From Hanleya hanleyi (Eukaryota; Mollusca; Polyplacophora; Lepidopleurida; Hanleyidae), in the NCBI GenBank assembly GCA_036873755.1, contig JAVTVY010025102.1, positions 44,330 to 108,329 of the forward strand: a DNA stretch of 64,000 nt, written 5' to 3'. This document shows, piece by piece, positions 9,255 to 64,000 of this stretch. The notes under the pieces were generated by a model that was given only the letters and a program-made list of their open reading frames with translations, had not been told where the DNA came from and did not search any database. The position numbers and the translations under genes were made by a program. Each line of letters begins with the position of its first letter. The stretch's first letter is position 1.

Positions 9255-9277
9255 TGGTGAGCTAGTTGTGGTGGGAT

Positions 9278-27120: not shown

Positions 27121-27129
27121 CCAGTGTTT

Positions 27130-27372: not shown

Positions 27373-27384
27373 GTATAACTATGT

Positions 27385-27675: not shown

Positions 27676-27699
27676 AATGACCATAGTCAAGCTTAGCCG

Positions 27700-29090: not shown

Positions 29091-29094
29091 CTTA

Positions 29095-30700: not shown

Positions 30701-31019
30701 ACGACATGCACTGATCGATACCGTAACATGTCGTATATACTCTATATATCTACTTATTGATCGTCAAAGTCAGCTCTGTTAAAACTTGTACCTAATTGTA
30801 TGGTGCTTGAAATAAAAAATCTCGATGCTTGATATTTCAAGTTTTATTTTGTGAATAAACAACACAATAAACATGCGCCGGGCGGTTCCCCAAGTTTGGG
30901 TATAATGTAACATTGGAAACAATAAACTTTATGAACATTGCTAAACTTGTTGCTATTCATAAAAGCGTCAATACGACACGCCCTCAGGCTATAACCAAAC
31001 TCAAATGACCTTTGTTTTA
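30701..31019 (+). repeat. inner right arm of the older inverted element
   Basis: Pairs with 27,130-27,250 up to about 30,840. Farther out, GTATAATGTAACATTGGAAA and CAATAAACTTTATG (30,899-30,935) match the sequence between gene and array in the palindrome (61,727-61,762). That segment holds an AATAAA that could be the poly(A) signal of the outward gene. Confidence 0.65.
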
Positions 31020-39914: not shown

Positions 39915-41061
39915 TAGATGACATTCTGTTTCATCAAGCAGGATTCAGTGCTGGACTTTAAGGGCTGAGTTCCGTGGGTTCTGGAAGTATGTCAGTATTT
40001 ATAAACGCACCTGGCTTTTTGAGAATAAGCAAGTCACATGTGAAGTAATAGTAAACCACCACTTGTTAACGGTAACATCTAGTCGTGATTGGGTAAGTCT
40101 TTAGTTCAAGTGTCTTGTTTGTTTGGCTGTAAGGTTTGTCTCCCTTGAATCACCTGTGTGGTTCATTGTACAACTGGAAAGTACTTTTCGTTTGACATTG
40201 GGTTGTCATTTTGCTGTATGTCAAGGCTGTCAACGAATACACACCAATCTGTTTTAAGCAGAGTCTCGGGTCTTGTATGTGGAATCTTCAGAGGCAACCT
40301 GAAGTCGAATTCTGGAATCGTTATCGCTAAGGTTGTATGCGCAGACCCTTCACGTGAAACTACGTCACAAGCGCCGTATAATTAACTGTCAAAACTCGCA
40401 ATACGAATTGCCAGAATAAGATGACTCGGTTAACGTATGTATGTAGAAGAATGTAGTTGAAACACATCGTAAAATTAGTATATTGAGAATCGTTTCTTGA
40501 GCACGGCCAGGTTAGGGGATGAAGAGGGATGAACAGTCACCCATCGCAAATATGCTAGACTTGCTGGTGTCTTTCGTTCATCTTTCTGAGAAATATCAGG
40601 CAATTGTAAAGGTGCATACCGATTATTTAGAGTATGATGAACCTCAGTCACATTTGGAGTTTGACTGTTCGTACGAAACCCGTAAAGATCTTTTTTCATG
40701 CGAACATCGTGAAGGTCTTATATTACACGGTGTTCACAAGGCCACAAGCCCTGGGGTTGAGCGGAATTAGTCTCAATCTATATATAACGGTTGTTCAAAT
40801 CTCCTACTCGATGATGTCGATCTCTGCACAAACTCGCATATTCGTTGGTTGAATCCAGTATTTGAAATGACCATTTCAGGTCAAATTGTGACAAACGGGT
40901 TTGAAGTAATCAGCCACGGGTGGGAAATATTGTTGTAACCTCTTGCCGTTTACATCACGCTCGCTGACGGCATGCTCACTGACATCACGCTGAACCCCAC
41001 GGATATGAATTAAGCACATTGAGTGGGCAAGAATTTGCCTATTCTTTTGGCTGTGGACATT
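39915..41061. other. unassigned sequence
   Basis: An 83-codon frame at 40,519-40,770 (MKRDEQSPIANMLDLLVSFV...) has a protein-like composition and continues weakly past its stop, but no family was recognised. Just before its stop, AGCCCTGGGGTTGAGCGGAATTAG resembles, in inverse, the region after the RT of copies A and B (CTAATTCCGCTTAACCCGG at 28,693). Confidence 0.35.
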
Positions 41062-46700: not shown

Positions 46701-48892
46701 TTTAACACGATTATATTGACTTTATAAGACCTCTATTCGTCACGTTTTGTCTGTACGTGTGTATTAAGGAAATAATATAGAGTACAGTGTTGTTTTAACT
46801 TAATCCATGGAAACTCAAATAATCTGATTTTGCTGCATATGGGCTCACTATAACACGCTCTATTTGCTGATTCATAGGAAATTATACAGTGATCAAATTC
46901 AACTATAAATTTATGGGAATCATATCGGAATAGTTTATTGCATTTCGAGCAAAATTGATGCATTCCGTGCTAATAGGGGTTAATTTGTCGTATGGTTATT
47001 TGAATATTCTCACAGATAACAGCTCTACTCTACAAATCAAAATTCAACAAACAGTATTTTCCAACGCCAGCCAGGCTTGCTTTATAAAGAATTCAAAGCA
47101 AAACCATCTAATGTCCATTTAAACCGGTTTAATACCATTCCTTATATATATATATGTATATCACACAGTCGCGAGGTACTTAAATGAGATTGTAAGATAA
47201 TAGTCAAAAATACTTTCGATGGCGTTGAAAGATTACAGTTAAGATATGTGTATTGGAATTGCATACCTGTTTTAAAAGTTATTTTAACTATCACATTATG
47301 GATGTTTTGACTGGCAAACATGTCCAATCATATTCTAGGGCAACAATTTTAGGTTCTAGCCGAGCAATCAAAATGTTTTCACTGGTGGACGAAAAGGTCA
47401 GGGTTCGATTGTGTTTATTCACGTGAACCCCTTGACTGCTTAAATGCCACATATAGTCCTGTATGGAATTGAAACCCGTAACATTCCGCAGACCAAGCGT
47501 CAAAGATCCTTATCTCTAACTCTATACGGAAGAATTGATATATGAGAGGGGAATGGCAGTTCTCAATTCACACCTAGTACGTAATGCATAATTAACCAGT
47601 AACTATAACGGCTGGATAAGCAAGACCTATATCTTTGACAGCTATACCCGATTTTTATGTCATCGCGCACCATAATTTATGGTGTCACTTATTACTTTCC
47701 TGAATCAAATCCTTTTACCGATCTAATTTTATTTATATATCTTCTATTATATCTAATTATTACAATTCCATTGCCGAAAGTAGCCAATAATGAAGTAATA
47801 AATCCTCCCCGTGGGGTAAGAACCATACTAAATCATTCCAGCAAGACGTCAGATTAATAAGACTCTACACAAGTCTCACGTTCCATAATAGTTTGTAAAG
47901 AGAACTCCAATTTCAAGTCAACAAATAAGCTGTCATTAAACATGCATCACTTGTCAGGAAAGATCTGTGAAAAACGAACCGTAACATTATTGAAATCAAT
48001 ATGGACAGGTGTGGTTCGGAAAATTGAATCTTTAAGGTAAGGTATTTGTCAAGGTACAACCATTAAACATTCCTGGCAAAGGGTATTTATGAATGTTTTT
48101 ATTATGGTATATGTTTGTCTTTAGCATATTAAACAATACATCCTAATTGGCACTATTGGCTACATTTTAAATACATATGTGAGTCGTATATGTTAATCAC
48201 GCTTCAATAGCGCCAGGTCCTCGTAAAGTGAGCGGTGGGGTGCTTTCTGAAGTTTGGGGGCAAGACGTCACTATGTCTGATCTCAAAGTTATCCTAACAA
48301 GCTTTCGTGGCTTATCAACCACGGTGTATCGCCTTAATGGGTGTTACATACACATTTGAACTCTGTTCGGTTTAGATCACTCGATCGGATTCCATGGCGA
48401 CGAAACTTGTTGAGACTTTAGGTTCAGAGGCTAAATCACTAAATATTAATAAGTCGGGAAGAGATGAGGTAGAGAAGGAATGTATTTCAAATAATTCTGT
48501 AAGTTTTAGCTGACGTAGCCCAAATAATTGTCAAGGTATCCAAAAGCTAACGGAACCGGCCTTCAAAACCAACAACAGAAAAAGGTGAATGACGCATTTT
48601 ACCGGGAACAAACTATCATGTTTTATATTTTATTTAGAAGTTTCGGCTCGAAGATAATTTTCTATTATATCTATATATTTTCATAATATAATAGTTTCTA
48701 TTAATGTCAGAGTAGTATACAAAGCGTATTTACAGCCGCATTTTGCCCGGGGAGGTAACTCTTGCATCCGCCAGGAGGCGCCACCAGCTCAAGAGACCAA
48801 AAACTACCTCCAACACAGCAGAGTTCCACGCTGCATGGTTCCATTGGGCCGAGTGAGGCTCTCTTCAGTCATGTCATGGGTGTTTTCACAGA
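46701..48892. other. unassigned sequence
   Basis: No gene was recognised. A lone AGGAGGCGCCACCAG at 48,773-48,787 recalls the satellite core of 11-19 kb. Confidence 0.4.
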
Positions 48893-48918
48893 ATAAATAA
48901 ATAAATAAATAAATAAAA
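48893..48918 (+). repeat. (AATA)n microsatellite
   Basis: About six AATA units just outside the left end of the large palindrome. Confidence 0.8.
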
Positions 48919-48959
48919 AGCGGAACACGGACTCGTACAATATACAATATACGGGGAAA

Positions 48960-49906
48960 TGCCTGTATGGGTATATCTCCATATTGCTCCATACTGGCTA
49001 TATGGGGGGGAGGGGTGGTCATTTTTTTTCGTGGGCTTTACTATGACTTGTGGGGTTTTGTTTTTCACGTCTCGCTGAGAAAAACACAATGGGAGGGGTT
49101 CCGGAGCGAATCGATGAATTTTTTGGGAAAAGTCACCGAGATCTGTATATATAGGCTCATACTGGCTATATGGGGGGAGGGGTGGTCAATTTTTTTTGTG
49201 GGTGTTACTATGGGTTGTGGGGTCTCGTTTTTCTCGTCTCGCCGAGAAAATCACAATGGGAGGGGTCCCGGAGCGAAACGGTGAAATTTTTGGAAAAAGT
49301 CACCGGTATATAGCCCCATATAGTGCCATACCTGCTATATGGGGGGAGGGGTGGTCAATTTTTTTTTGTGGGCTTTACTATGGGTTGTGGGGTCTCGTTT
49401 TTCTCGTCTCGCCGAGAAAAACACAATGGGAGGGGTCTCGGAGCGAATCGGTCAAATTTTGGGAAAAAGTCACCGAGGTCTGTATATAGTTCCATATAGC
49501 CCCATACTGACTATATGGGGGGAGGGGTGGTCAATTTTTTTTGTGGGCTTTACTATGGGTTGTGGGGTCTCGTTTTTCTCGTCTCGCCAAGAAAATCACA
49601 ATGGGAAAGGTTTCCAAGCGAAACGGTGAAATGTTTGGAAAAGTACCGGGTAGGTCTGTATATAGGCTCATACTGGCTTTATGGGGGGAGAGGTGGTCAA
49701 ATTTTTTTTGTGGGTGTTACTATGGCTTGTGGGGTCTTGTTTTTCACGTCTCGCCGAGAAAAACACAATGGGAGGGGTCCCGGAGCGAAGCGGTGAAATT
49801 TTTGGGAAAAGTCACCGAGGTCTGTATATAGGCTCATATAGCTCCATACTGGCTAGATGGGGGTATAGGTTCAGCCTGGGAAATTCACACACGTTCATTG
49901 TGATAT
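48960..49906 (+). repeat. terminal ~170-bp array (Z-type), left arm
   Basis: About six units, each with ATACTGGCTATATGGGGGGA, GGGTTGTGGGGTCTCGTTTT, CTCGTCTCGCCGAGAAAA, CACAATGGGAGGGGTCCCGG and GAAAAAGTCACCGAG. Anchor positions are near 48,990, 49,160, 49,333, 49,506, 49,671 and 49,847. The array is interrupted at 49,906 and resumes at 53,605. Long open frames here come from the repeat and are not genes. Confidence 0.85.
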
Positions 49907-50360
49907 GGCACCAGTCTACTATTAATTTCGTTACTTGTTATGTATTAGCGTTAAAAATCGGCAAAAATCCAGAAAATTCACAATGTATAAATCCACCTGG
50001 CATGTCAATATTTACCTTGTGGGACATTACCAGTGGGAGTCTTGACAGATGTTGACCATGGAAATTTCAAATTGCCGCCACTGACAGCTGATTGGTGCTA
50101 CAGAATGTCATTCAATTTGTAAACAGGGAGCCTTCTCACCCTTCACTGATCATGTCTCCATCCACCATGCTTTTCCCAAAATGGCCCAAATCAGCACCAG
50201 GAAGTACAGTTTGAAGCCTCATCTGCAAGTTGAAATATCAGATGTATCAGAAATGCTGAAAATTCGCAGCTCATAAAATCCATAAACATCTGCTCTCAAA
50301 TTTCTAAACAATGTAGGTCGTGGCTACTGACCCGGAAGTGATTAATTGTAGTCTGATGCC
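49907..50360 (+). repeat. direct repeat R1 (454 bp) of the composite element
   Basis: Starts GGCACCAGTCTACTATTAAT and ends with the imperfect complement ATTAATTGTAGTCTGATGCC (17 of 20 positions paired), so the repeat itself has terminal inverted repeats like a small DNA transposon. Confidence 0.85.
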
Positions 50361-51839
50361 TGTCAGGAATGGAACCATTGTTAAAATAAGGAATGCTCTC
50401 ATCTAAACAAACCATACCCATCCCCAAACTATCTTGAGAAGGCGCAGATAAAACTATTCACAGATATAGATTTTACAGACTATATACCAAGGGTACCCCG
50501 TTTATATTTCCCCTCGATTTGCCCCATATGCCTTAAGACTGAGGTACAAGTAAAAAGTACAATATCTCATTAACCTGTACATATTTTTCCATCTGGTAAA
50601 AAGCACCAAGTCGACAATCCTTCTGCCTATAAAAAGAAGTATAAAGCATTAACTAGATATGTTAAACACTATTTTTAATTATTTTTTTATTATTTTAATT
50701 CATTTTTCATGAAATTATTCAAATTAAAGTTTAAAAATAAAGAAAACTTAAATTCAAAATGTGTCAAAACATAATTTGTTTTCAAGCTGCTCATTTAGGC
50801 TACATTTGTTAAAATTTTCCTTCATGGCAGTGGTTAACTTCTCCATGTAATCAGTGGGTCATCCCAGTAATCTATCAAATGAGATTAAAATTTGATGTTG
50901 ATACAAAGATCAAAGACATGTTTAATCCTGTAATAAGTGACAGCAATATACAGAAATGTGTACACAACACATACCAAAATATAACACAGAGGTGTTTATG
51001 GTATACACAACTCCCATTAGTCCGGGATGTTAGGGCATAAAAGGGACTGTTTGGTTCAGATTCTTCCAAAAGCACCAAATTTGGCCCATATGTCGCCCAT
51101 ACAATACCTTTTCGATTTTTGACGAGCGCCAAGGTAGTCGCCCCATGGGGCCGCCATATTGGCGAAATTCATTATTGCCGCCACCCGGGTTAGAGGTCAA
51201 TCGTATTTAAAACAACAAAATGGCTAAAATCATGAATAATACAACTTTTTAGTGGTTATCGGTGTCGGGGAATCTGATTCTGATCTTATTTCAACGATTT
51301 GAGGTCAAGGTCGCCCTAAAGGTCATTTTGGGGTCAAATTCGTCAGTTTTAGTGGTTTTTAGTCGAGATATACAAACTAACTCATTTTATCGATTTTCGG
51401 AGTTGAGTAACCCGAATCTGGCCATATTTTGACAATTTGAGGCAATATTGCATGTGAGGTTCACGACCGAGGTCACCTGAAACAGAGATCAACCGGAGGT
51501 CAATTATAGGAAACACCAAAAGGGCTAGAATCACAAATAATACCATAGGGCTTTGTGGCATCGAAGAATGAGATTCTGACCTTATTTTGACGATTTGAGG
51601 TCATGGTCACCTCATTTGAGAATTAAAGGTCGAAGATCAACAGTTGCTACTAAAAACAATCGAAACAAGATTATTCAGGAACAAATGTTACTAAAATACT
51701 TCGGAGATGACATCTGCTGACAAAATGCTATAACTATGCCGCTACGTGCATTTAAATGTTCAAAATACAAAACAAAGACCGCTTAAGCAACAGTATACCA
51801 ATGATTACTTTTACTACCTATGCCTTCTGGCTTGCGCTC
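50361..51839. other. interior of composite element, left part
   Basis: AT-rich, no gene. From about 51,185 to 51,625 a GATTTGAGGTCAAGGTCGCC-like unit recurs three times at ~140-180-bp spacing with GAATCTGATTCTGACCTTAT-like partners. Confidence 0.55.
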
Positions 51840-52333
51840 TATGATGCCAGCAATAAATAATACTTGTCATCACCGCCCTCGACGCACCCGCCTTCGCATT
51901 TGCAGAGGGTCGTGTATCGGACATCGGCACAGTTGCATTTGCACCTTCCCGTGCATGCCTTGAGTCAGCCGCAGTGCATGAGAATGGCATATGCCATAGA
52001 AGTGTCGCTGAGAGTGGTCCATAGCGGTTGCCATGTACTGGTGCAATCTTTGTGCCAGCTCCACTCACTGAAGTCAGGGATTTCCTGCTGGAGTGAAGCT
52101 AGTCCAGTAGAAACTCGCTTGCAGCAGCGCTCGTTTCACATGCTGCAAAAGCGCGGCTTGGGAGGTGGGATGTTTTCCAGCTATCTGGTTGCAGTAGTGA
52201 AGAGGTGATGCTTGGCCTCATTGACACCGGCTGCACCACATCCCTTGCTGTACATTAGTACGATGAAGCGTTCTATAAGCTCCATATGCACAGACTCGAG
52301 AGTGTCAGGATCATGCGTGCTACCCACAAGATC
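51840..52333 (-). pseudogene. decayed gene with C-terminal cysteine cluster
   Basis: On the minus strand, translation across three frames gives a coherent protein-like series. First comes DPDTLESVHMELIERFIVLMYSKGCGAAGVNEAKHHLFTT in two overlapping blocks (52,310-52,190). After a stop and a frameshift comes QAALLQHVKRALLQASFYW (52,160-52,100). After another shift comes IPDFSEWSWHKDC (52,085-52,045), then LWTTLSDTSMAYAILMHCG, a stop, and KACTGRCKCNCADVRYTTLC with KCEGGC (51,955-51,880). From memory, many invertebrate genomes carry a multi-copy uncharacterised protein family with the same order of motifs and a Cys-rich C-terminus. A T-rich tract followed by CAG at about 52,334 could be a splice acceptor. 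It may be captured cargo. Function is unknown. Confidence 0.65.
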
Positions 52334-53182
52334 TCTGATATGAATATGAAAGAAAATTACAAAATTATAATCCTGGAGATAGTGGAAATGGAATGAAGAT
52401 AAAGTATTTGCTATGATGCAAATGTGACTGACAATAGACACACAAAAATGTGAAACCATCAAACAGTCAGATTAATTGTTCACTCAGTTAATCAGATTTT
52501 ATTTGTCTCATTAAAGTTACAAATGCAAAAGGCATTTTGGAAATTTTTTGTGTGTGGAAAAAAACATCTGAGTTTTTACAGGTGATATGATTATTATTAA
52601 TTTCATGTGGTTTTAGACTGATATAAAGTGAATTTATGCATAAATGGTTGAAGCATTGAACATCTGAACTGAGGTCTAGATTTTGAAAAAAAGCATGTAA
52701 TTGTATCTGTGTGAATTTCCTTTCTTCCATTTACATTTTATTGTATCTTGAAAGTTAATATGCTCATAATTACCAGCTGTGTTAAGTGAACCGCGTCATT
52801 TTTGGCATTGAATATTTGGCCCTAGAACTGACAAATCACTCATTTTTTGCCTATATTTGCTCCAAAAGGTCTCAATTTTGTCGCAGAAATGGCATAACAA
52901 TACAAGAGATGTTTGCCCAGCATTATCAGTATGATGTTTATTTCAACCACAGTTAGCAAGAAAAAAAATAATTTTAATAATTAAAAAATTGATTAAAATT
53001 GATTAAAATTAATTAAAAATTTCATTTTATTTTATTAATAATTTAATAACATAAATCATAAACCCTCATATTTGTACGTTGTTCATGAGTCAGCCTGGGA
53101 CAAATTGGGGTGATCAAGTCAAAACTATAGCCGCAGTGACGATTTAAAGTTCTCTGGTCAAATGTGAAAATGTCATGTGACA
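52334..53182. other. interior of composite element, right part
   Basis: AT-rich with ATTAAAATTxATTAAAA runs near 52,970-53,030; no gene seen. Confidence 0.5.
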
Positions 53183-53600
53183 GGCACCAGTCTACTATTA
53201 ATTTCGTTACTTGTTATGTATTAGCGTTAAAAATCGGCAAAAATCCAGAAAATTCACAATGCATAAATCCACCTGGCATGTCAATATCTACCTTGTGGGA
53301 CATTACCAGTGGGAGTCTTGACAGATGTTGACCATGGAAACAGAATGTCATTCAATTTGTAAACAGGGAGCCTTCTCACCCTTCACTGATCATGTCTCCA
53401 TCCACCATGCTTTTCCCAAAATGGCCCAAATCAACACCAGGAAGTACAGTTTGAAGCCTCATCTGCAAGTTAAAATATCAGATGTATCAGAAATGCTGAA
53501 AAATCGCAGCTCATAAAATCCATAAAGATCTGCCCTCAAATTTCTAAACAATGTAGTTCGTGGCTACTGACCCGGAAGTGATTAATTGTAGTCTGATGCC
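53183..53600 (+). repeat. direct repeat R2 (418 bp) of the composite element
   Basis: About 98% identical to R1 by eye, except for a 36-base segment of R1 (about 50,065-50,100) that is absent here. Termini are the same as in R1. Confidence 0.85.
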
Positions 53601-53935
53601 ATATGGGTTGCTTGGATTTGTTTTTCACGTCTCGTCATTTAGAACACGATGGGAAGGGTCTCGGAGCGCAACGGTGAATTTTTTGGAAAAGTACCATATA
53701 GCCCATATAGTCCCATACTGGCTATATGGGTGTATAGGTCCAATCAGGGAAATTCACACACGTTCATTGTGATATGGGTTGTTTGGATTTGTTTTTCTCG
53801 TCTCGTCATTTAGAACACGATGGGAAGGGTTTCGAAGCGAAACGGTGAAATTTTTGGAAAAAGTTCACCGAGGCCTGGGTAGGCCCATAGGCCCCATACT
53901 GGCTATGGGGGTATAGGCCCATACTGGGTGTACGT
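53601..53935 (+). repeat. Z-type array, left arm, inner part
   Basis: Two units resume after the insertion with GGGTTGCTTGGATTTGTTTT and CTCGTCATTTAGAACACGAT. They differ in type from the outer units and mirror 62,930-63,430. Confidence 0.8.
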
Positions 53936-53939
53936 TTTG

Positions 53940-54880
53940 GGGTCTAGGTGAGCCCCTAATGATCCTATGGTGTCGTGTGAGGTCTTATTTTGAAGCTCTC
54001 GTGGAGGAGCATCCGACTGGACTAATAGTTCGTCCGTTTTCAATATTCTGCGCATGCGCAGTCTGGCCCGTAGTATAGAAAGCAGGCATTTTGGGGGTAT
54101 GTGGGTGTGTGTTTGGGGTAGAGATGGACCGCTATGGGTCCGAATGGGTCGTGGAAGGTGTCAAAGTGAAGCTTGTGTGGGATAGAGTCAGAATGGCGTG
54201 TTTTTTTTATTGCAAGTCGCGTCAACCTGCGCATGCGCAGTTGGTTGTAGTAAGTAAAGTGGCCATTTTGGGGCAGTGCAGGAAGGTATTTGAGGTAGAG
54301 ATGGACCATCCTTGGTCCGAATGCGTCCTGGGAGATGTAATTTTGTATCTCTCGGGGTGTACATCTCCATTTTAGGGATGTTCGCTTCATCTGTGACGTC
54401 ATCGGTGACATCATCAGTACGAGTAGTAGCGAAAGTGGGCATTTTGGGGAAGTTCAGGAAGGTATTTGGGGTAGAGAGGGACCATCCTTGGTCTGAATGC
54501 GTCGTGGGAGGTGCCATGTTGTAGCTCTCGGGGTGTACATTCAGATTTGAAGGATGTTCACGTCATCTGTGACGTCATCGGTGACGTCATCAGTAGGAGT
54601 AATAGCCAAAGTGGGCGTTTTTGGGGGTGTGTGGAGGTGTGTTTGGGGTAGAGATGGACCATCCTTGGTCCGAATGCGTCGTGGGAGGTGTCATGTTGTA
54701 GCTCTCGGGGTGTACACCCCGATTTGAGGCATGTCCGCAACATATGTGACGTCATTGGTGACGTCATCAGTACGAGTAGTAGCGAAAGCGGGTATTTTGG
54801 GGCAGTGAAGGAAGGTATTTGGTGTACCATCCTTGGTCCGAATGCGTCGTGTGAGGTGTCATCTTGTAGTAACGCCCGCC
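53940..54880 (+). repeat. Y-type array, left arm
   Basis: Five or six units of about 145-185 bases carry the anchor GTAGAGATGGACCATCCTTG. The outer units contain CTGCGCATGCGCAG (54,044 and 54,228, a perfect NRF-1-like palindrome). The inner units carry paired TGACGTCA (CRE-like) sites around 54,394, 54,569-54,590 and 54,747-54,766. The array mirrors 61,950-62,880. Confidence 0.85.
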
Positions 54881-55412
54881 AACACCAAGCTCAATCCTTC
54901 AACGCCCTGGTGAAATAGCTCAGAAGCTCTGATTTTCTAGATATTCCATGGAATTGTCACTAATTCTTCGAAATGCAGTGACGTCCGTCGTTACGCCTTA
55001 ACAGACCGGAGAGAGTACAACAACAACAACAAGGATGAGTCATGAGAGAACAACAACAACAAGAAGTTTTTTCATATAGATTATTCTCCCCAATGTTACA
55101 TCATACCCAAGCTGGGGGAGCCGCGTTGGGTATATTTACAATTCAAGAAGACTCTTGTCCAATCAGAGGCCACCATTTGCATCTGTCATATTCGTTCCTG
55201 TCCGTTATATGTATTCTTGTCCAATCAGAAGTCTCCATTTCAGAAAGTTCCATCTTCGGCCATGTTCGCTCTGAACCGTTTATTCTAATCATCGTCGGGC
55301 AGGCCAGGATACCGTTGAGGCAACATATCCTCAGATAGTTGTTTGTGCATTCTGAGTATTTATCAGTGCATGGATGAATACATTCACCCGATGGGAAGAT
55401 TCCGTAATTTGG
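54881..55412. other. spacer between array and outer gene, left arm
   Basis: Holds (CAA)n blocks near 55,020-55,062, ATTGG/CCAAT-type sites (55,159 and 55,221) and a GTATATTTAC box near 55,128, plus the 3' flank of the outer gene. The mirror region of the right arm (61,450-61,950) has AATAAA at 61,748; here the same position reads AATAAT. Confidence 0.6.
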
Positions 55413-56221
55413 TCACGAAGAACGTAACGTAACCCCCCACACACACATCAAGAAGATATCCAATTGGTCCACTTCGTCCAGCACGGGCTGTAGCGACGCC
55501 CGGTTAATGATGGTAAACGGTTGGTCAAATACCGGGATGTTACTGCTTGGGTAACAGTATCGGACTTGGCCTGTCTCCTTATGCTGCAGTACATAACCAA
55601 ACGCCAGATTTAAGTCGAAGGACGTAGCTTGGTCATTGAAGATGGCTTCCACGTAGCTGCATAGACGGGCGAGGTTGGTCAGTCGGAAAATGTAGATATC
55701 TTGAATAGGGCGATGACGGTGGAAACAGTGCCGTATCATGGGCCAATGGCGCCGATAGATGTCACTCACTGGATGGGCGTCCTTTGAGAGATCGCTGGTA
55801 ACATCCACGGCATCTTCCAGAAAATGCTAGGGATCGGCTGGATATCTAGTCTCTTCTGAACTGTGGGTATAGGCGGGCTCTCCGTGATCGCATCACCAGT
55901 GGCATTCGTCTCTCCGGGCTCATCTTCACTAGGTTCGACCCTCATGGGTGCCTCTTTAGTGGAAATTTGTGACGGACCATGAATCAAACGTTGGTGCTGT
56001 CTCAACTGACTGGGTCGTTTGAAGAGTTGACCACATTCATTACATTGTTCCGTCGCGCCTTCGTGGAGTAAGCGTTCATGGCGCAGTAAAGCGTCTTCCC
56101 GATTAAATGACCGTGCGCAGGTTATACAAGTATATCGTGCACCGTTGTGGATGGAGGACTCGTGTCGTCGCAAATCTTGTGGGCGAGTAAATGGCTTCTG
56201 CCAAGTTGTGCAAGATAACAT
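55413..56221 (-). pseudogene. zinc-finger gene B (polymerase N-terminal homologue), left arm
   Basis: Mirror copy of 60,550-61,449. The ATG at 56,221 (MLSCTTWQKPF) lies about 45 bases after the TATAAGAG box. An upstream in-frame ATG at 56,281 overlaps that box and is unlikely to be used. Three C2H2-type fingers follow; the first has CTTW instead of CxxC, so it has lost a zinc ligand. Next come an acidic linker (EPSEDEPGE) and the region LNLAFGYVLQHKETGQVR that precedes the exonuclease in the 36-kb polymerase gene. A 37-bp deletion between CAT microrepeats near 55,830 shifts the frame, so this copy is broken. The right-arm TGA is absent here (CGA, Arg). Confidence 0.8.
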
Positions 56222-56288
56222 ATCGGCTGTGGATCTGGAAATGATGAATGCCGTAAAATTCTGGCTCTTATAGGCCAACATAGAAGTA

Positions 56289-56390
56289 CCCGGATGTAGG
56301 CGTGGACGTCAGCGAGAAGATCCCGGATGTACAAGAACCAGGATGAACCCGGATGTAAAAGTTTCCGGATGTAAAAGTGCCCGGATGTTC
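56289..56390 (-). promoter_or_regulatory. ACATCCGGG motif cluster upstream of gene B, left arm
   Basis: On the minus strand five or six copies of (T)ACATCCGGG(TA) or close variants lie before the TATAAGAG box at about 56,265-56,272. It mirrors 60,385-60,482. Confidence 0.7.
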
Positions 56391-56393
56391 AAT

Positions 56394-56675
56394 TCACTTC
56401 GCCCACTGGAAAATTTCCTCTCTCCTCGTGCAAAGATCACATACGGCCAAGGATACACCTTCAAGGCAGGTCAGGCATCGCTGGCGATGGTAGCGGAGAT
56501 CTCCGGGCTCTTCCCTGGCTGAGCTATAACCCACACTGAAGAAATCATCTATCATTTCCATAGTTATGGGCGGGTATCTTTTGGTAACTCGTTTGGGGAG
56601 TCGAGCGGGAACCGGCACCTTTTCGTCAATCTTCAACGATTGCTCGTCTGCCTTGGAATTGGCTGGCTTTTCCAT
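56394..56675 (-). CDS. 93-residue cysteine-motif protein, left arm
   Basis: An intact 93-codon frame, the mirror of 60,096-60,377. I do not recognise the family. The N-terminus is Lys/Pro-rich (MEKPANSKADEQ, PVPARLPKR), the middle has YPPITMEMIDDFFSVGYSS, and the C-terminus has a paired cysteine motif CLTCLEGVSLAVCDLC that could bind one zinc ion. A TATA box (TATAAATA-type on the minus strand, near 56,731-56,738) and a CCAAT-type site (56,779) precede it. Seven base differences from the right-arm copy change six residues and none is silent. It sits between the two zinc-finger genes and points outward with them. Confidence 0.7.
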   Translation of the reverse strand: MEKPANSKADEQSLKIDEKVPVPARLPKRVTKRYPPITMEMIDDFFSVGYSSAREEPGDLRYHRQRCLTCLEGVSLAVCDLCTRREEIFQWAK

Positions 56676-56867
56676 TTGATTGGGTCTGCTACAGGTTGTG
56701 AGAAATGTACATCTAACATGCGTGTTTCCGTATTTATAGTTAGAGGTGAGGTGACCGTCCTATCGACCAATCAGAAGCCATCATTTCAGAAAGTTCAATC
56801 TTCGTTCAGTGTAACCTAAACGTCTTCGGGCAAGCCATGATACTGAAGCTCGAAGCTCTTACTTCTC

Positions 56868-57161
56868 TCATTCAACACTGGGATCAATCTCCATCGGCTC
56901 TTCAATACGCGGCGGCGAATCTACCTCCATGGGTTCTTCTATTCTCAGATGCATTCCCATAGAAACTGAAATATCCGGTCTCGAGAGTGGCGAGCGTGAT
57001 CCGTGTATGACATTTCGGTGACGTCTCAATTGACTGGGATGCTTAAAGGCTATATCACAATCCGCACATGTATGCATGGGTACTTCGTGGCGTGCACGTG
57101 TGTGACAACGCAAACTGTCCAGTCGGTGAAAGCGCTTCGAGCAAGTTGTGCAAGAGAACAT
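56868..57161 (-). CDS. zinc-finger gene A, left arm
   Basis: Mirror of 59,610-59,903. The chosen start is the ATG at 57,161 (MFSCTTC); an in-frame ATG at 57,185 lies only ~20 bases from the TATAAGAG box. Two C2H2 fingers are complete: CTTCSKRFHRLDSLRCHTRARH and CADCDIAFKHPSQLRRHRNVIH. A tail holds a duplicated acidic motif, RIEEPMEVD and RIEEPMEID. Only one residue differs from the right-arm copy. Two fingers with a short acidic tail suggest a DNA-binding regulator encoded by the element. Its promoter resembles that of gene B, so common regulation is likely. Confidence 0.75.
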   Translation of the reverse strand: MFSCTTCSKRFHRLDSLRCHTRARHEVPMHTCADCDIAFKHPSQLRRHRNVIHGSRSPLSRPDISVSMGMHLRIEEPMEVDSPPRIEEPMEIDPSVE

Positions 57162-57225
57162 ATCGGCTGTGGATCTGGAAATCATGAATGCCGTAAAAAT
57201 TCTGGCTCTTATAGGCCAACATAGG

Positions 57226-57330
57226 AGTACCCGGATGTAAACGCGGACGTCAGCGACAATCCCCGGATGTACAAGAACCCGGATGTACCCGGATGTAAAA
57301 GTGCCCGGATGTTCACGAATGTTCCACCAT
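57226..57330 (-). promoter_or_regulatory. ACATCCGGG motif cluster and TATAAGAG box of gene A, left arm
   Basis: Minus strand, six ACATCCGGG-like motifs followed by TATAAGAG near 57,206-57,213. Mirrors 59,444-59,565. Confidence 0.7.
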
Positions 57331-57384
57331 GCCGGATTTCTATCAGGCCCAGGTTCAGAAGCTCTCATGTCCTGCATGTGAATA

Positions 57385-57855
57385 GTCAGTCATATTGTGT
57401 GTGTGTATGCATGTATGCGTCTGTGTGTATGCATCTGTGTGTGTGTGTGTGTGTGTGTATGTGTGTGTGTGTATGTGTGTGTGTGCGCATGTGTGTGTGT
57501 GTGTTTGCGTGTGTGTACGCGTGTGTGTATGTGTGCTTGCGTGTCTGTGTTTACGCGTGTGCGTGTATGTGCATGTGTGTGTGTGCGTGTATGTGTGTGT
57601 GTGTGCGTGCGTGTGTGTATGCATGTGTGTATGCGTGTGTGTGTGCGGGTGCGTCTGTGTGTGCTTGCGAGTGTGTGTATGCGTGTGCGTATGCGTGCGT
57701 GGGTGTATGTATATGTGTACTTGAGTGTACGGGTGTGCGTGTATGCGTCGGTGTGTATGTGTGTGCGTGTGCGTGCATGTACGTGCATGTGTATGCCTGT
57801 ATGTGTGTGTATGCGTCTGTGTGTATGCGTCTGTGTGTATGCGTGTGTGTGTGTA
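57385..57855 (+). repeat. (GT)n-rich block, left of centre
   Basis: About 470 bases of GT dinucleotides with interspersed GCAT, GCGT and ACGCGT variants. It mirrors the (CA)n block at 59,027-59,365. Confidence 0.9.
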
Positions 57856-57856
57856 G

Positions 57857-58255
57857 GCAACCACCACCACCATCACCGGGTGTTGACGTCCGTCAGCACC
57901 ACCACTACCACCACCACTATCACCACTACCACCACCACTACCACCACCACCACCACCATCACCGGGCGTTGATTCCCGGCATCGCCATCACCACCACCAC
58001 CACCACCACCACACACCACCACACCATCACCACCACCACCACCACCACTGGGCACACACGCCCTGGTGTACCCTATGTGAGGTTCATTCTTATATGTGCA
58101 GACACCACCACCAACACCACCACCACCACACACTACCACCACACACACACCACCACTACCACATTCCACCACCACCACACACTACCACCACACACACACA
58201 CACCACCACATTCCACCACCACCACCACCACCACCACCACCACCACTGGGCGTTG
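57857..58255 (+). repeat. (CAC)n/(ACC)n block, left of centre
   Basis: Tracts of CAC and ACC triplets are broken by ATCACCGGGCGTTGA-type hairpins (57,882, 57,956) and a unique ~50-base insert (58,050-58,100). Mirrors 58,630-59,025. Confidence 0.9.
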
Positions 58256-58640
58256 ACGGGCGTCAACGCCCGGTGGTGGTGGGAGCTCCCGTGTTGCAGG
58301 CCTCTTGGATCGGAGCTCTTGGAGCTCAAAGCGTGTGAAGCTCAGAGCTCGGAAGTGACATTTGCATATGACCTCTGTGAAGTCACTTCCGCTTCCGTTC
58401 ACGTGACCGGAACTGACCTTTGACCCCTGCGCGAGCTAACAATACCGGATAAAAATTGCGCGCAAGGGTCAAAGGTCAGTTCCGGTCACGTGAACGGAAG
58501 CGGAAGTGACCTCACAGAGGTCATATACAAATGTCATTTCCGAGCTCTGAGCTCCACACGCTTTGAGCTCCAGGAGCTCCGATCCAAGAGCTCTGCCACA
58601 CGGGAGCTCCCACCATCACCGGGCGTTGACGCCCGTCAAC
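58256..58640. repeat. central region of the palindrome
   Basis: Arms meet across a 25-base spacer (58,434-58,458) that contains CCGGATAAAAA. Inner arms carry CACGTGACCGGAACTGACCT followed by TTGACCC and its inverse. Farther out are clusters of GAGCTC. The outer bounds are the small hairpin GGGCGTTGACG/CGTCAACGCCC (58,246-58,272 and 58,620-58,645). Confidence 0.88.
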
Positions 58641-59025
58641 GCCCGGTGGTGGTGGTGGTGGTGGTGATGATGGTGGTGGAATGTGGTGGTGGTGTGTGTG
58701 TGGTGGTAGTGTGTGGTGGTGGTGGAATGTGGTGGTGATGGTGTGTGTGTGGTGGTAGTGTGTGGTGGTGGTGTTGGTGGTGGTGTCTGTACATATAAGA
58801 ATGAACCGGGCATAGGGTACACCAGGACGTGTGTGCCCAGTGGTGGTGGTGGTGGTGGTGGTGATGGTGTGGTGGTGTGGTGTGGTGGTGGTGGTGGTGG
58901 TGGTGATGGCGCTGACGGGCGTCAACTCCCGGTGGTGGTGGTAGTGGTGGTGGTAGTGGTGATGGTGGTGGTGGTAGTGGTGGTGCTGCCGGACGTCAAC
59001 ACCCGGTGGTGGTGGTGGTGGTTGC
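58630..59025 (+). repeat. (GGT)n block, right of centre
   Basis: Complementary mirror of 57,857-58,255, including a hairpin at 58,914 and the ~50-base unique insert at 58,790-58,840. Confidence 0.9.
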
Positions 59026-59026
59026 A

Positions 59027-59365
59027 TACACACACACACATACACACAGACGCATACACACAGATACAGGCATACACATGCACGTACATGCACGCACACG
59101 CACACACATACACACAGACGCATACACGCACACGCGTACACACTCAAGTACAGATATACATACACTCACGCACGCATACACACGCGCATACACACACTCG
59201 CAAGCACACACAGACGCACACACACACACATGCATACACACATGCATACACACACACCTACACGTACACACACACACGCACACACACACACACACACAGA
59301 CGCACACACACACACACACAGATGCATACACCCAGACGCATACATGCATACACACACACACTATG
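59027..59365 (+). repeat. (CA)n-rich block, right of centre
   Basis: Complementary mirror of the (GT)n block but about 130 bases shorter. Confidence 0.9.
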
Positions 59366-59443
59366 ACTGATTATTCACATGCAGGGCATGAGAGCTTCTG
59401 AACCTGGGCCTGATTGAAATCCGGCAAGGTGGAACATTCGTGA

Positions 59444-59565
59444 ACATCCGGGTACTTTTACATCCGGGACTTTTACATCCGGGTACATCCGGGTTCTTGT
59501 ACATCCGGGGATTGTCGCTGAGGTCCGCGTTTACATCCGGGTACTCCTATGTTGGCCTATAAGAG
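59444..59565 (+). promoter_or_regulatory. ACATCCGGG motif cluster and TATAAGAG box of gene A, right arm
   Basis: Six ACATCCGGG motifs lie between 59,444 and 59,545, followed by TATAAGAG at 59,558-59,565. The sequence from CTATGTTGGCC through the box to CAGCCGATATG is almost identical to that before gene B (60,485-60,552). Confidence 0.75.
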
Positions 59566-59609
59566 CCAGAATTTTTACGGCATTCATGATTTCCAGATCC
59601 ACAGCCGAT

Positions 59610-59903
59610 ATGTTCTCTTGCGCAACTTGCTCGAAGCGCTTTCACCGACTGGACAGTTTGCGTTGTCACACACGTGCACGCCACGAAGTACCCATGCATA
59701 CATGTGCGGATTGTGATATAGCCTTTAAGCATCCCAGTCAATTGAGACGTCACCGAAATGTCATACACGGATCACGCTCGCCACTCTCGAGACCGGATAT
59801 TTCAGTTTCTATGGGAATGCATCTGAGAATAGAAGAACCCATGGAGGTAGATTCGCCGCCGCGTATTGAAGAGCCGATGGAGATTGATCCCAGTGTTGAA
59901 TGA
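59610..59903 (+). CDS. zinc-finger gene A, right arm
   Basis: The same protein as the left-arm copy at 56,868-57,161 except for Ala instead of Thr in the first Cys pair (CATC). Two C2H2 fingers, then SRSPLSRPDISVSMGMHL and the duplicated acidic tail. The start ATG lies 45 bases after the TATAAGAG box. An in-frame ATG at 59,586 would fall at or before the expected transcription start. No intron is apparent. The frame is intact in both arms, which implies a recent origin or continued use. Confidence 0.75.
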   Translation: MFSCATCSKRFHRLDSLRCHTRARHEVPMHTCADCDIAFKHPSQLRRHRNVIHGSRSPLSRPDISVSMGMHLRIEEPMEVDSPPRIEEPMEIDPSVE

Positions 59904-60032
59904 GAGAAGTAAGAGCTTCGAGCTTCAGTATCATAGATTGCCCGAAGACGTTTAGGTTACACTGAACGAAGATTGAACTTTCTGAAATGATGGCGTCTGA
60001 TTGATCGATAGGACGATCACCTCCCCTCTAAC

Positions 60033-60040
60033 TATAAATA
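60033..60040 (+). promoter_or_regulatory. TATAAATA box of the 93-residue gene, right arm
   Basis: The box lies 56 bases before the ATG at 60,096. The ACATCCGGG cluster is absent, so this gene has a different promoter from the zinc-finger genes. Confidence 0.6.
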
Positions 60041-60095
60041 CGGAAACACGCATGTTAGACGTACATTTCTCACAACTTGTACCAGACCCAATCAA

Positions 60096-60377
60096 ATGGA
60101 AAAGCCAGCCAATTCCAAGGCAGACGAGCAATCGTTGAAGATTGACGAAAAGGTGCCGGTTCCCGCTCGACTCCCCAAACGAAATACCAAAACATACCCG
60201 CCCATAACTATGGAAATGATAGATGATTTCTTCAGTGTGGGTTATAGCTCAGCCAGGGGAGAGCCCGGAGATCTCCGCTACCATCGCCAGCGATGCCTGA
60301 CCTGCCTTGAAGGTGTATCCTTGGCCGGATGTGATCTTTGCACGAAGAGAGAGGACATTTTCCAGTGGGCGAAGTGA
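60096..60377 (+). CDS. 93-residue cysteine-motif protein, right arm
   Basis: Mirror of 56,394-56,675 with six residue differences (for example NTKT instead of VTKR, and LAGCDLCTKRED instead of LAVCDLCTRREE). The cysteines CLTC and CDLC are kept in both. The family is not recognised. A single zinc-binding site is suggested by the two CxxC pairs 9 residues apart. Its stop lies only a few bases before the ACATCCGGG cluster of gene B, so the three genes are tightly packed. Confidence 0.7.
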   Translation: MEKPANSKADEQSLKIDEKVPVPARLPKRNTKTYPPITMEMIDDFFSVGYSSARGEPGDLRYHRQRCLTCLEGVSLAGCDLCTKREDIFQWAK

Positions 60378-60384
60378 ATTGAAC

Positions 60385-60506
60385 ATCCGGGCACTTTTAC
60401 ATCCGGAGACTTTTACATCCGGGTACATCCTGGTTCTTGTACATCCGAGATCTTGTCGCTGACGTCCGCGCCTACATCCGGGTACTTCTATGTTGGCCTA
60501 TAAGAG
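60385..60506 (+). promoter_or_regulatory. ACATCCGGG motif cluster and TATAAGAG box of gene B, right arm
   Basis: Six motifs (some changed, such as ACATCCTGG and ACATCCGAG) are followed by TATAAGAG at 60,499-60,506. It is closely related to the gene A promoter. Confidence 0.75.
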
Positions 60507-60549
60507 CCAGAATTTTACGGCATTCATCATTTCCAGATCCACAGCCGAT

Positions 60550-61449
60550 ATGTTATCTTGCACAAATTGTCAGAAGCCATTTACTCGCCCACAAGATTTG
60601 CGACGACACGAGTCCTCCATCCACAACGGTGCACGATATACTTGTATAACCTGCGCACGGTCATTTAATCGGGAAGATGCTTTACTGCGCCATGAACGCT
60701 TATTCCACGAAGGCGCGACGGAACAATGTAATGAATGTGGTCAACTCTTCAAACGACCCAGTCAGTTGAGACAGCACCAACGTTTGATTCATGGTCCGTC
60801 ACAAATTTCCACTAAAGAGGCACCCATGAGGGTCGAACCTAGTGAAGATGAGCCCGGAGAGACGAATGCCACTGGTGATGCGATCACGGAGAGCCCGCCT
60901 ATACCCACAGTTCAGAAGAGCCTAGATATCCAGCCGGTCCCTAGCATTACTGTTCCTAGTCATACGCCTGACAACAACGAACATTTTATGGAAGATGCGG
61001 TGGATGTTCCCAGCGATCTCTCACAGGACGCCCATCCAGTGAGTGACATCTATCGGCTCCATTGGCCCATGATACGACACTGTTTCCACCGTCATCGCCC
61101 TATTCAAGATATCTACATTTTCTGACTGACCAACCTCGCCCGTCTATGCAGCTACGTGGAAGCCATCTTCAATGACCAAGCTACGTCCTTCAAATTAAAT
61201 CTGGCGTTTGGTTATGTACTGCAGCATAAGGAGACAGGCCAAGTCCGATACTTTTATCCGAGCAGTAACATCCCGGTATTTGACCAACCGTTTACCATCA
61301 TTAACCGGGCGTCGCTACAGCCCGTGCTGGACCAAGTGGATATCTTGGGATGGGCCTATGAACAGCGCCCCAACTTCCAATGGGTCGTAGAGAGGGTGAC
61401 CAATGTTACGTTCTTCGTGACCAAATTACGGAATCTTCCCATCGGGTGA
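60550..61449 (+). pseudogene. zinc-finger gene B (polymerase N-terminal homologue), right arm
   Basis: Start at 60,550 (MLSCTNCQKPF), 44 bases after the TATA box. Three C2H2-type fingers: CTNCQKPFTRPQDLRRHESSIH, CITCARSFNREDALLRHERLFH and CNECGQLFKRPSQLRQHQRLIH. A linker follows (EPSEDEPGE), then HPVSDIYRLHWPMIRHCF. An in-frame TGA at 61,123-61,125 interrupts the text. Beyond it the same frame continues LNLAFGYVLQHKETGQVRYF, VFDQPFTIINRASL and VTNVTFFVTKLRNLPIG, and ends at 61,449. This corresponds to the N-terminal part of the 36-kb gene; the exonuclease and polymerase are absent in both arms. The truncated form could act as a DNA-binding protein only. The left arm has Arg at the stop position. 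Confidence 0.8.
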
Positions 61450-61949
61450 ATGTATTCATCCATGCACTGATAAATACTCAGAATGCACAAACAACTATCT
61501 GAGGATATGTTGCCTCAACGGTATCCTGGCCTGCCCGACGATGATTAGAATGAACGGTTCAGAGCGAACATGGCCGAAGATGGAACTTTCTCAAATGGAG
61601 ACTTCTGATTGGACAATAATACATCTAACGGACAGGAACGAATATGACAGATGCAAATGGTGGCCTCTGATTGGACAAGAGTCTTCTTGAATTGTAAATA
61701 TACCCAACGCGGCTCCCCCAGCGTGGGTATGATGTAACATTGGGCAGAATAAACTATATGAAAAAACTTGTTGTTGTTGTTGTTCTCTCATGTCTCATCC
61801 TTGTTGTTGTTGTTGTACTCTCTCCGGTCTGTTAAGGCGTAACGACGGACGTCACTGCATTTCGAAGAATTAGTGACAATTCCATGGAATATCTAGAAAA
61901 TCAGAGGTTCTGAGCTATTTCACCAGGGCGTTGAAGCATTGAGCTTGGT
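61450..61949. other. spacer between gene B and array, right arm
   Basis: Contains two CTGATTGGACAA (CCAAT-type) sites (61,607, 61,668), GTAAATATACCC near 61,696, AATAAA at 61,748 and (TTG)n blocks at 61,768-61,815. It mirrors 54,881-55,412. Confidence 0.6.
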
Positions 61950-62880
61950 GTTGGTGGGCGTTGCTACAAGATGACACCTCACACGACGCATTCGGACCAA
62001 GGATGGTCCATCTCTACACCAAATATCTTCCTTCACTGCCCCAAAATACCCGCTTTCGCTACTACTCGTACTGATGACGTCACCAATGACGTCACAGATG
62101 CTGCGGACATGCCTCAAATCGGGGTGTACACCCCGAGAGCTACAACATGACACCTCCCACGGCGCATTCGGACCAAGGATGGTCCATCTCTACCCCAAAC
62201 ACACCTCCACACACCCCCAAAAACGCCCACTTTGGCTATTACTCCTACTGATGACGTCACCGATGACGTCACAGATGACGTGAACATCCCTCAAATCGGA
62301 ATGTACACCCAAAGAGCTACAACATGACACCTCCCACGACGCATTCGGACCAAGGATGGTCCCTCTCTACCCCAAATACCTTCCTGCACTTCCCCAAAAT
62401 GCCCACTTTCGCTACTTCTCGTACTGATGACGTCACCGATGACGTCACAGATGAAGCGAACATCCCTAAAATGGAGATGTACACCCCGAGGGCTACAAAA
62501 TGACACCTCCCAGGACGCCTTCTGACCAAGGATGGTCCATCTCTACCTCAAGTACCTTCCTGCACAACCCCAAAATGACCACTTTACTTACTACAACCAA
62601 CCGCGCATGCGCAGATTGACGCGACTTGCAATAAAAAACACGCCATTCTGACTCTACCCCACACAAGCTTCACTTTGATACCTTCCACGACCCATTCGGA
62701 CCCATAGCGGCCCATCTCTACCCCAAACACACACCCGCATACCCCACAAAATGCCTGCTTTCTATACTACGGCCAGACTGCGCATGCGCAAAACGGACGA
62801 ACTATTAGTCCAGCCGGATGCTCCTCCACGAGAGCTTCAAAATAAGACCTCACACGACACCATAGGATCATTAGGGGCTC
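61950..62880 (-). repeat. Y-type array, right arm
   Basis: Mirror of 53,940-54,880, with paired TGACGTCA sites near 62,075-62,095, 62,252-62,275 and 62,427-62,448 and GCGCATGCGCAGATTGACGC near 62,602 and CTGCGCATGCGCA near 62,779. Confidence 0.85.
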
Positions 62881-64000
62881 ACCTAGACCCCAAAACGTCC
62901 ACCCAGTATGGGCCTATACTCCCATAGCCATGTAGTATAGGCTTATGGGCTTACCCAGGCCTCGGTGAACTTTTCCAAAAATTTCACCGTTTCTTTTCGA
63001 AACCCTTCCCATCGTGTTCTAAATGACGAGACGTGAAAAACAAATCCAAACAACCCATATCACAATGAACGTGTGTGAATTTCCCAGGTTGAACCTATAC
63101 CCCCATATAGCCAGTATGGAGCCATATGAGAGAGAGAGAGAGAGTATTAGTATGAGCCTATATACAGACCTACCCCGTACTTTTCGAAAAATGTCACCGT
63201 TTCGCTTCGAAATCCTTCCCATCGTGTTCTAAATGACGAGACGAGAAAAACAAATCCAAACAACCCATATCACAATGAACGTGTGTGAATTTCCCTGATT
63301 GGATCTATACCCCCATATAGCCAGTATGGGACTATATGGGCTATATGGTACTTTTCCAAAAATTTCACCGTTGCACTCCGAGACCCTTCCCATCGTGTTC
63401 TAAATGACGAGACGTGAAAAACAAATCCAAGCAACCCATATCGCAATGAATGTGTGTGAATTTCCCAGGTTGAACCTATACCCCCATATAGCCAGTATGG
63501 AGCTATATGAGCCTATATACAGACCTCGGTGACTTTCCCCCAAAATTTGACCGATTCGCTCCGAGACCACTCCCATTGTGTTTTTCTCGGCGAGACGAGA
63601 AAAACGAGACCCCACAACCCATAGTAAAGCCACTCCTCCCCCCATATAGCCAGTATGGCACTATATGGGGCTATATACCGGTGACTTTTTCCAAAAATTT
63701 CACCGTTTCGCTCCGGGACCCCTCCCATTGTGATTTTCTTGGCGAGACGAGAAAAGCGAGACCCCAAAACCCAAAGTAACACCCACAAAAAAATTTGACC
63801 ACCCCTCCCCCCATATAGCCAGTATGAGCCTATATACAGACCTCGGTGATTTTTCCCAAAAATTTCACCGATTCGCTCCGGGACCCCTCCCATTGTGTTT
63901 TTCTCGGCGAGACGAGAAAAACGAGACCCCACAACCCATAGTAACACCCACCAAAAAAAATTGACCACCCGTCCCCCCATATAGCCATTATGGAGCTATA
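62881..64000 (-). repeat. Z-type array, right arm (continues past window)
   Basis: Seven or so units of about 170 bases, complementary to the left-arm Z array. The inner units have ATCGTGTTCTAAATGACGAG; the outer ones have CATTGTGTTTTTCTCGGCGA. A (GA)n run (63,129-63,143) lies in one unit. The uninterrupted site matching the left-arm composite insertion is at 63,431-63,450. Confidence 0.85.

Follow-up and report, generated by a model that had tools for sequence, protein, structure and literature searches.

The window analysed here, a stretch of 64,000 nt from the genome of the polyplacophoran mollusc Hanleya hanleyi (C20459:44330–108329, the end of the window coinciding with the end of the contig), harbors a giant palindrome which is real and which is one member of a family of mobile elements, not an assembly fold. 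Palindromes with the same conserved centre recur throughout the contigs listed in our searches, some of them are bounded by 6-bp target duplications, and part of what their arms encode is of polymerase-B ancestry. It is probable that the family was derived from the polymerase end of Polinton/adintovirus-like elements by a copy-back event. The parts are of known kind (Polintons, defective copy-back genomes, foldback elements); their combination as a self-complementary genomic family appears to be the novel aspect.

The palindrome of the window and its relatives

Self-comparison of the window revealed head-to-head arms at 53597–58433 and 58459–63445 as well as an outward continuation of these arms, in which 49148–49908 is mirrored by 63436–63836. 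Over the right-arm positions 59500–62700 the arms are 96.7% identical (102 mismatches at 3129 aligned sites), which is far beyond chance, and the mirrored arms across a 25-base spacer that an earlier reading of this DNA (the original prediction) had described are thereby confirmed. In both arms the modules follow each other in the same order, namely CAC and CA repeats, a zinc-finger (ZF) gene termed ZF-A, a 93-residue Cys protein, a second zinc-finger gene termed ZF-B, the Y array (period 176 bp), and the Z array (period ∼165–171 bp). The claim that each arm holds the same ordered module is thereby upheld. In the left ZF-B one zinc ligand is lost (C to W) and the frame changes at a 37-nt difference. 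The ends were located by outward alignment of the left and right arms. The left end, formerly placed at 48960, is at 48711 (5′-AGTAGTAT), and the right end lies past the contig end, which the right arm reaches at 64000.

A structure of this kind might be an assembly or read-fold artefact or might result from two haplotypes joined in inverted orientation. In fact, the right arm stops at the contig end, the 3.3% divergence of the arms could resemble heterozygosity, and some contigs listed in the searches described below have identical scores (C50431/C15783 and C13662/C8196) and are possibly allelic, so that the assembly may hold both haplotypes. Nevertheless, the arms differ by arm-specific indels of 110, 37, 21, and 15 nt, and the left arm alone carries an old insertion of 3693 bp with its own duplication (Table 1), the empty site of which is intact in the right arm. 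As the insertion is in one arm and the site is uninterrupted in the other, the arms have separate histories. In addition, the same centre is present in 39 contigs listed, and the flanks of the C8656, C16666, and C17224 palindromes are unlike apart from perfect 6-bp duplications, which refutes an artefact for the family. The statement that the arms carry different point changes and lesions, and that the palindrome is no simple read-fold artefact, is upheld by the indels and by the one-arm insertion with its empty site. We give an artefact next to no credence; an assembly artefact or haplotype join is ruled out by the empty site and the target duplications.

The source assembly comprises 2.48 Gb (52,793 contigs). 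When it was searched with the central 2 kb of the palindrome (best 40 of 7621 candidates scored), 19 of the 39 contigs listed were matched in both orientations beyond query position 1990 (hand count), and in nine contigs, which were fetched because they showed pairs, the arms keep the same order of parts with local losses. A second query of 120 nt from the centre including the spacer (best 40 of 164 candidates scored) was matched in 39 contigs listed, 38 of which run through the spacer into both half-cores, and the spacer was found in both orientations as expected of a symmetric element. This recurrence indicates that the centre is inherited by the family and is not a local fold. The possibility that genome copies never occur as inverted pairs was checked; inverted pairs were found, some with target duplications, and thus the proposal of a mobile element with long inverted repeats, the ends of which carry duplicated genes, is not refuted and is in fact borne out.

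The termini of the elements read 5′-AGTAGTAT (AGTAATAT at one end), and the flanks are unlike. Both ends could be located in five palindromes (Table 1), three of which have a perfect 6-bp duplication and two a duplication matching at 5 of 6 positions. As a control, 30 cross-element pairs gave no match at 6/6 and one at 5/6. One end or none was located in five other palindromic contigs (C20262, C21315, C18320, C28217, and C13269). The ends 120155/128843 of C28217 show no duplication; its left terminus is more likely at 119929, and its right terminus was not found.

These results also bear on the suggestion that a host inverted duplication, produced by template switching as in origin-dependent inverted-repeat amplification (ODIRA), caught a repeat and that the palindrome itself is not mobile. 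Template switching at replication forks is reported to give inverted junctions with a short spacer (PMC10766183), and a second-order inverted duplication (4.7 kb, 98.1% identity) is present in C18320. Nevertheless, the same spacer is found in 38 of the 39 contigs listed, and in five elements the ends are AGTAGTAT-type termini accompanied by 6-bp duplications (6/6 or 5/6); in addition, ODIRA is described there in yeast, as a copy-number change and not as a transposable family. A host event would need to have occurred once and to have been followed by transposition, so this explanation collapses into the one favored here, and as a separate explanation we regard it as very improbable. A random host duplication is ruled out by the recurrence of the spacer.

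In C18320:1–10379 (L024) two head-to-head palindromes are joined tail to tail, with 98.1% mirror identity over 4.7 kb; this could be the trace of a concatemer or a local inverted duplication at the contig start. C50027 contains two palindrome centres 5.4 kb apart. The terminal motif recurs internally (AGTAGTATAAAAGCGC), immediately inward of the Y array, in L012, L013, L018, L019, and L025 (for example in C8656 at 26337 and 34229), as if the outer arrays had been added onto an older end.

Polymerase ancestry and parental-type contigs

ZF-B runs on into a stretch which is 70–74% identical in DNA to a decayed relict at 36.7–40 kb of the window (Table 1). Among the relatives of this relict in the genome, seven listed rows have uninterrupted frames of 1454 residues (best 150 of 6469 candidates). 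The 1454-aa protein of C24476 contains C2H2 fingers and a Vsr-like stretch (PF03852 with E = 0.0016, under the cut-off; PDB 1cw0 with E = 0.001), and its public homologues, among them Branchiostoma and echinoderm proteins with 42–48% identity, mostly carry PF03175 (best 120 of 631). The polymerase of C17224 matches PF03175 above the cut-off (E = 2.7e-13) and has the patterns KxxxNSxYG and DTDS. Judged by these sequence relationships, ZF-B corresponds to a truncated 5′ portion of a zinc-finger/Vsr/DNA-polymerase-B gene; of the family B DNA polymerase the window element has the truncated N-terminal part only. A terminus-like motif (AGTAGTATATGATTG) is found at 43901 on the minus strand, ∼3 kb downstream of the polymerase relict at 36.7–40.8 kb, and is possibly the right end of this relict.

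The relative C17224 is a palindrome with the polymerase gene pointing outward in both arms, which are 91–99.5% identical to each other and 97–99% identical in this gene. Its centre contains a single copy of the half-core. Thus, its fold-back point differs from that of the window lineage, and the palindromes therefore had two or more origins, unless the centre was rebuilt. The 40 best places for the polymerase segment of C17224, including itself, are at 98–100% identity (4921 candidates). None of six other contigs sampled has an inverted polymerase partner at the expected place; of the eight contigs chosen for this comparison, the remaining two ended too early. Four of these six (C42271, C18808, C19044, and C48821) contain a common region, 92.8–97.6% identical, with an rve integrase frame, 10.6–11.9 kb upstream of the matched polymerase segment (PF00665 with E = 2e-10 and 1.4e-10 in the two contigs which were Pfam-scanned). 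An ATPase-like frame lies beside the integrase in C42271, with all Pfam matches under the cut-off, and by eye also in C18808. In addition, C42271 has a protease frame between polymerase and integrase, 5–6 kb upstream (PF00770, Peptidase_C5, E = 0.001, just under the cut-off). The frames of C18642, which have no Pfam match above the cut-off, we take to be of capsid type, and in the sampled stretch of C22995 nothing was recognised. Packaging ATPases of the Pox_A32 type gave 143 matches genome-wide among the best 150 of 5235 candidates, and the genome appears to be rich in Polinton-type elements. Many of these ATPase matches (C9591 and other contigs) lie in open frames of 216 aa.

Upstream of the polymerase, the region C42271:222974–223600 aligns colinearly with each arm of C17224 (83% and 78% identity). 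By this homology to the region upstream of a parental-type polymerase, the arms of C17224 resemble the polymerase portion of a Polinton-type element in duplicate, the remainder being absent. The original prediction had set the palindrome apart from Polintons; this contrast is not supported, given the polymerase-B N-terminus in ZF-B, the 6-bp duplications, and the Polinton-type genes upstream of near-identical polymerases, from which the element appears to be a Polinton derivative.

The same contigs can also be read in another way, namely that the polymerase elements are autonomous, the ZF-Vsr-PolB protein alone moving them with its nuclease cutting the target, and that the upstream Polinton genes are separate neighbours. 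Consistent with this, the scanned open reading frames (ORFs) besides the polymerase in C24476 and C17224 have no match above the cut-off, in C24476 a single polymerase gene is enclosed by inverted ends belonging to that element, the polymerase includes a fused Vsr-like nuclease (PDB 1cw0, E = 0.001), and a block similar to the subterminal region of C17224 between the polymerase and the protease of C42271 could mark an element border. On the other hand, the integrase region recurs at an almost constant distance in four of the six contigs sampled for their 99% identical polymerase, and the 6-bp duplications fit a Polinton rve integrase. Furthermore, a frame just after the C24476 polymerase resembles a protease C-terminus by eye (Pfam finds nothing). 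We consider autonomous polymerase elements unlikely.

Proposed origin and comparison with known systems

We infer a copy-back step, mobilisation in trans by the integrase and the polymerase of a parent, and homogenisation of the arms by hairpin formation. The parent would carry the zinc-finger/Vsr/PolB gene and, upstream of it, an integrase, a packaging ATPase, an adenovirus-type protease, and probably genes for capsid proteins. In the course of replication by strand displacement, the polymerase would switch strands upstream of the polymerase gene and copy the same end back, and the resulting molecule would be self-complementary, with one and the same terminus at either end and a short central loop. 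Because such molecules keep the termini, an integrase supplied in trans could insert them with 6-bp target duplications. The window lineage would then have lost most of the polymerase, each arm retaining the ZF DNA-binding part in separate ORFs, and the Y and Z arrays would have formed by multiplication of subterminal units. As a single strand of the palindrome can fold into a hairpin and serve as its own template, the arms would be made identical again in each round and would diverge after insertion.

The similarity of the arms was followed in a tree of 21 arms from ten elements (1930 columns). In five of the ten elements the two arms are sisters (window 99/98, C28217 100/100, C16666 100/99, C13269 96/91, and C21315 94/87), the C21315 pair being less supported than the other four, and four arm pairs are unresolved within one subfamily. 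The mismatches between the arms of the window are patchy, with a longest clean run of 313 sites, a length attained by 0.16% of 5000 random placements. The similarity of the arms would be due either to templating of both by one arm in each round or to conversion after insertion.

Several observations weigh against the proposed origin. With the 2-kb query, 20 of the 39 contigs listed show one arm only past query position 1990. The non-palindromic C24476 (14,777 bp, 170-bp inverted ends, intact 1454-aa frame) has no target duplication (1/6), and its protein gave no match to PF03175 and none to the motif A and B patterns. The mismatch-free runs are longer than random, and gene conversion after insertion could also keep the arms alike. 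In the tree the pair C18320b is split, its left arm grouping with the right arm of C18320a (95/95), which fits a later 98% inverted duplication of the C18320 locus. Five elements have an arm which is at least as close to an arm of another element as to its partner (C10073, C20262, C7012, and C8656; a tie in C13269), and a tree of 792 columns leaves the window pair unresolved, with the left arm being nearest by distance to the left arm of C28217 and not to the right arm of the window. Concerning the parent, no element was traced end to end. C42271 and C17224 are 99% identical in the polymerase and only 78–83% identical in the upstream stretch, and thus C42271 is not the immediate parent of C17224. 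The block resembling the C17224 subterminal region adjoins the protease of C42271, and reading of the parental pieces L042 and L043 (outside of which C42271:223601–223999 lies) did not reveal the fold-back core. Finally, ZF-A and ZF-B are mostly broken among the sampled copies.

A more far-reaching idea, which we put forward tentatively and rate as doubtful, is that of a self-complementary transposon class in which the whole genome is one hairpin, each arm holding the complete message, and in which every transposition proceeds via a hairpin of single-stranded DNA which makes the arms identical again. Such an element would be a germline parasite of Polinton-type viruses and would possibly curb them via truncated ZF proteins. 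A regulatory role of the duplicated genes, as suggested in the original prediction, is likewise putative. The ZF and Cys proteins are putative binders of the terminal units or of the core and could act as truncated competitors; intact copies are few among those sampled (ZF-A 4/21, Cys protein 10/18, ZF-B 2/16).

Polintons are characterized by a 6-bp target duplication, ends starting with AG, and short inverted ends (∼0.1–1 kb) around unique genes. The present elements share polymerase B, the 6-bp duplications, and AG-starting inverted ends with Polinton/Maverick elements and adintoviruses, and contigs of the same genome with near-identical polymerase have the rve integrase and in one case an adenovirus-type protease. 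In contrast to Polintons, the inverted repeat makes up almost the entire element, both sides of which have the same end, a short spacer (25 nt in the window lineage) separates the arms of ∼4.5–8 kb, the polymerase includes ZF and Vsr parts, and it is truncated in the window lineage. In addition, no integrase, packaging ATPase, protease, or capsid gene was seen in the ORF lists of the window arms and of C17224 (Pfam was run on the named ORFs only, and the nine other palindromes had no ORF scan). Given these missing genes and the length of the ends, we regard the family as a derivative and not as a member of the Polintons.

Copy-back defective-interfering genomes and self-complementary molecules of linear replicons, of the type of self-complementary adeno-associated virus, consist of two inverted copies of one terminus with a short loop, and defective copy-back genomes are known from replicating viruses. 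The elements described here are alike in that one terminus is present in two inverted copies around a short loop and in that the missing genes would be supplied by a parent. In particular, C17224 has the polymerase end twice, with arms 78–83% identical to the upstream region of C42271, the parent being known in pieces only. Unlike these molecules, they form an integrated multi-copy genomic family with target duplications.

Long inverted ends with internal tandem arrays, comparable to Y and Z in both arms here, and many non-autonomous copies are also reported for Galileo, with the ends being longest in copies devoid of transposase (PMC3573991). Thus, the palindromes might be ordinary cut-and-paste foldback elements (Galileo or Mutator-like element type) whose ends came to meet through inward expansion and which have no relation to protein-primed replication. 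Nevertheless, that report gives ends of ∼1.26 kb and 7-bp flanking sequences for Galileo, whereas here the arms are several times longer (4.5–8 kb), the duplications have 6 bp, and polymerase-derived genes lie within the arms. Furthermore, the recognised coding remains are related to polymerase B and not to a cut-and-paste transposase, and the polymerase-bearing contigs carry the rve integrase. Pfam analysis of the named ORFs shows C2H2 fingers and polymerase-related parts only, no genome-wide search having been aimed at a P-type transposase, the enzyme encoded by complete members of the Galileo/Foldback group. We judge a cut-and-paste origin to be quite improbable.

A literature search of titles and abstract openings found no description of palindromic Polinton derivatives or of a self-complementary genomic family. 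If true, a genomic copy-back family with target duplications and many copies would be a fossil record of virus-like elements parasitised by their own deletion products and would offer a testable case for how the arms of giant palindromes stay alike. It would also serve as a caution that long palindromes in assemblies need not be artefacts.

Further features of the window

Table 1. Features of the window (window positions) and palindromic relatives with both ends located
Feature	Position	Strand	Remarks
Older decayed inverted pair, same family	26255..31557	.	arms 26255–27344 and 29839–31557; repeat copy 27988–29091 inside
Decayed relict of zinc-finger/polymerase-B/Vsr gene	36727..40800	+	stops and frameshifts
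Candidate left copy of 6-bp target duplication TGTCAG	48705..48710	.	inferred from relatives; right copy unassembled
Left terminus AGTAGTATACAAAGCG... and subterminal stretch	48711..48972	+	resembles termini of C21315 (35638) and C8656 (24234)
Left Z array, outer part	48972..49907	-	period ∼167 bp
Insertion, not part of the palindrome	49908..53600	.	3693 bp, terminal direct repeats ∼427/461 bp, 5-bp duplication ATATG
Left Z array, inner part	53601..53928	-	
Left Y array	54047..54869	-	period 176 bp
Polymerase-B N-terminal fragment, left arm, downstream of ZF-B	55413..55739	-	
Left ZF-B ORF	55766..56281	-	171 aa, C2H2 fingers
Left 93-residue Cys protein	56394..56675	-	
Left ZF-A	56868..57185	-	two C2H2 fingers; open frame extends to 57377
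Left CA-type and CAC-type simple repeats	57396..58246	.	
Left half-core of palindrome centre	58380..58433	-	
Central spacer	58434..58458	.	25 nt, conserved in other copies
Right half-core	58459..58532	+	74 nt, 93% identical at centre of C17224
Right CAC-type and CA-type simple repeats	58645..59361	.	
Right ZF-A	59586..59903	+	105 aa
Right 93-residue Cys protein	60096..60377	+	no relative found; no Pfam family above cut-off
Right ZF-B	60490..61125	+	211 aa: three C2H2 fingers and start of polymerase-B N-terminal region
Polymerase-B N-terminal region, right arm, truncated	60946..61490	+	homologous to 36983–37469 and C17224
Right Y array	61963..62800	+	period 176 bp
Right Z array	62950..64000	+	continues off contig end
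C8656			11,369 bp palindrome; target duplication GATGTG 6/6
C16666			11,069 bp palindrome; target duplication GCTGCA 6/6
C17224			16,071 bp palindrome with later inserts; target duplication ACCACT 6/6
C10073			8,906 bp palindrome; target duplication 5/6
C7012			11,856 bp palindrome; target duplication 5/6

Protein searches with ZF-B and the Cys protein found no relatives, nor did IMG/VR scans with ZF-B and the polymerase piece, and Rfam gave no match. Across the gene copies pN/pS is 0.54–0.61, from which no conclusion on selection can be drawn since the majority of ZF copies are broken and divergence is lower in the intergenic stretch ig1 than at synonymous sites.

The half-core at 58459–58532 includes GGGTCAAAGGTCA beside CACGTG, presumably resembling a direct repeat 1 (DR1) nuclear-receptor site. 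This half-core is 93% conserved over 74 nt in C17224, though the polymerase proteins compared are only ∼60–63% alike. The older inverted pair has Y-type arrays at both ends and ZF-B homology in one arm only.

Other repeats were noticed as well. Inverted copies (97%) of a reverse transcriptase fragment, which we take to be Penelope-like, lie at 19230–20331 and 27988–29091 of the window. A relative is inserted in the right arm of C17224 (34181–35043, by eye), and another reverse-transcriptase piece is present in C18320. Finally, the region 4049–10087 of the window contains a reverse transcriptase frame (883 aa; RVT_1 by Pfam) and a further set of frames, which we assume to be a LINE-type (long interspersed nuclear element) reverse transcriptase and a DIRS-like set.

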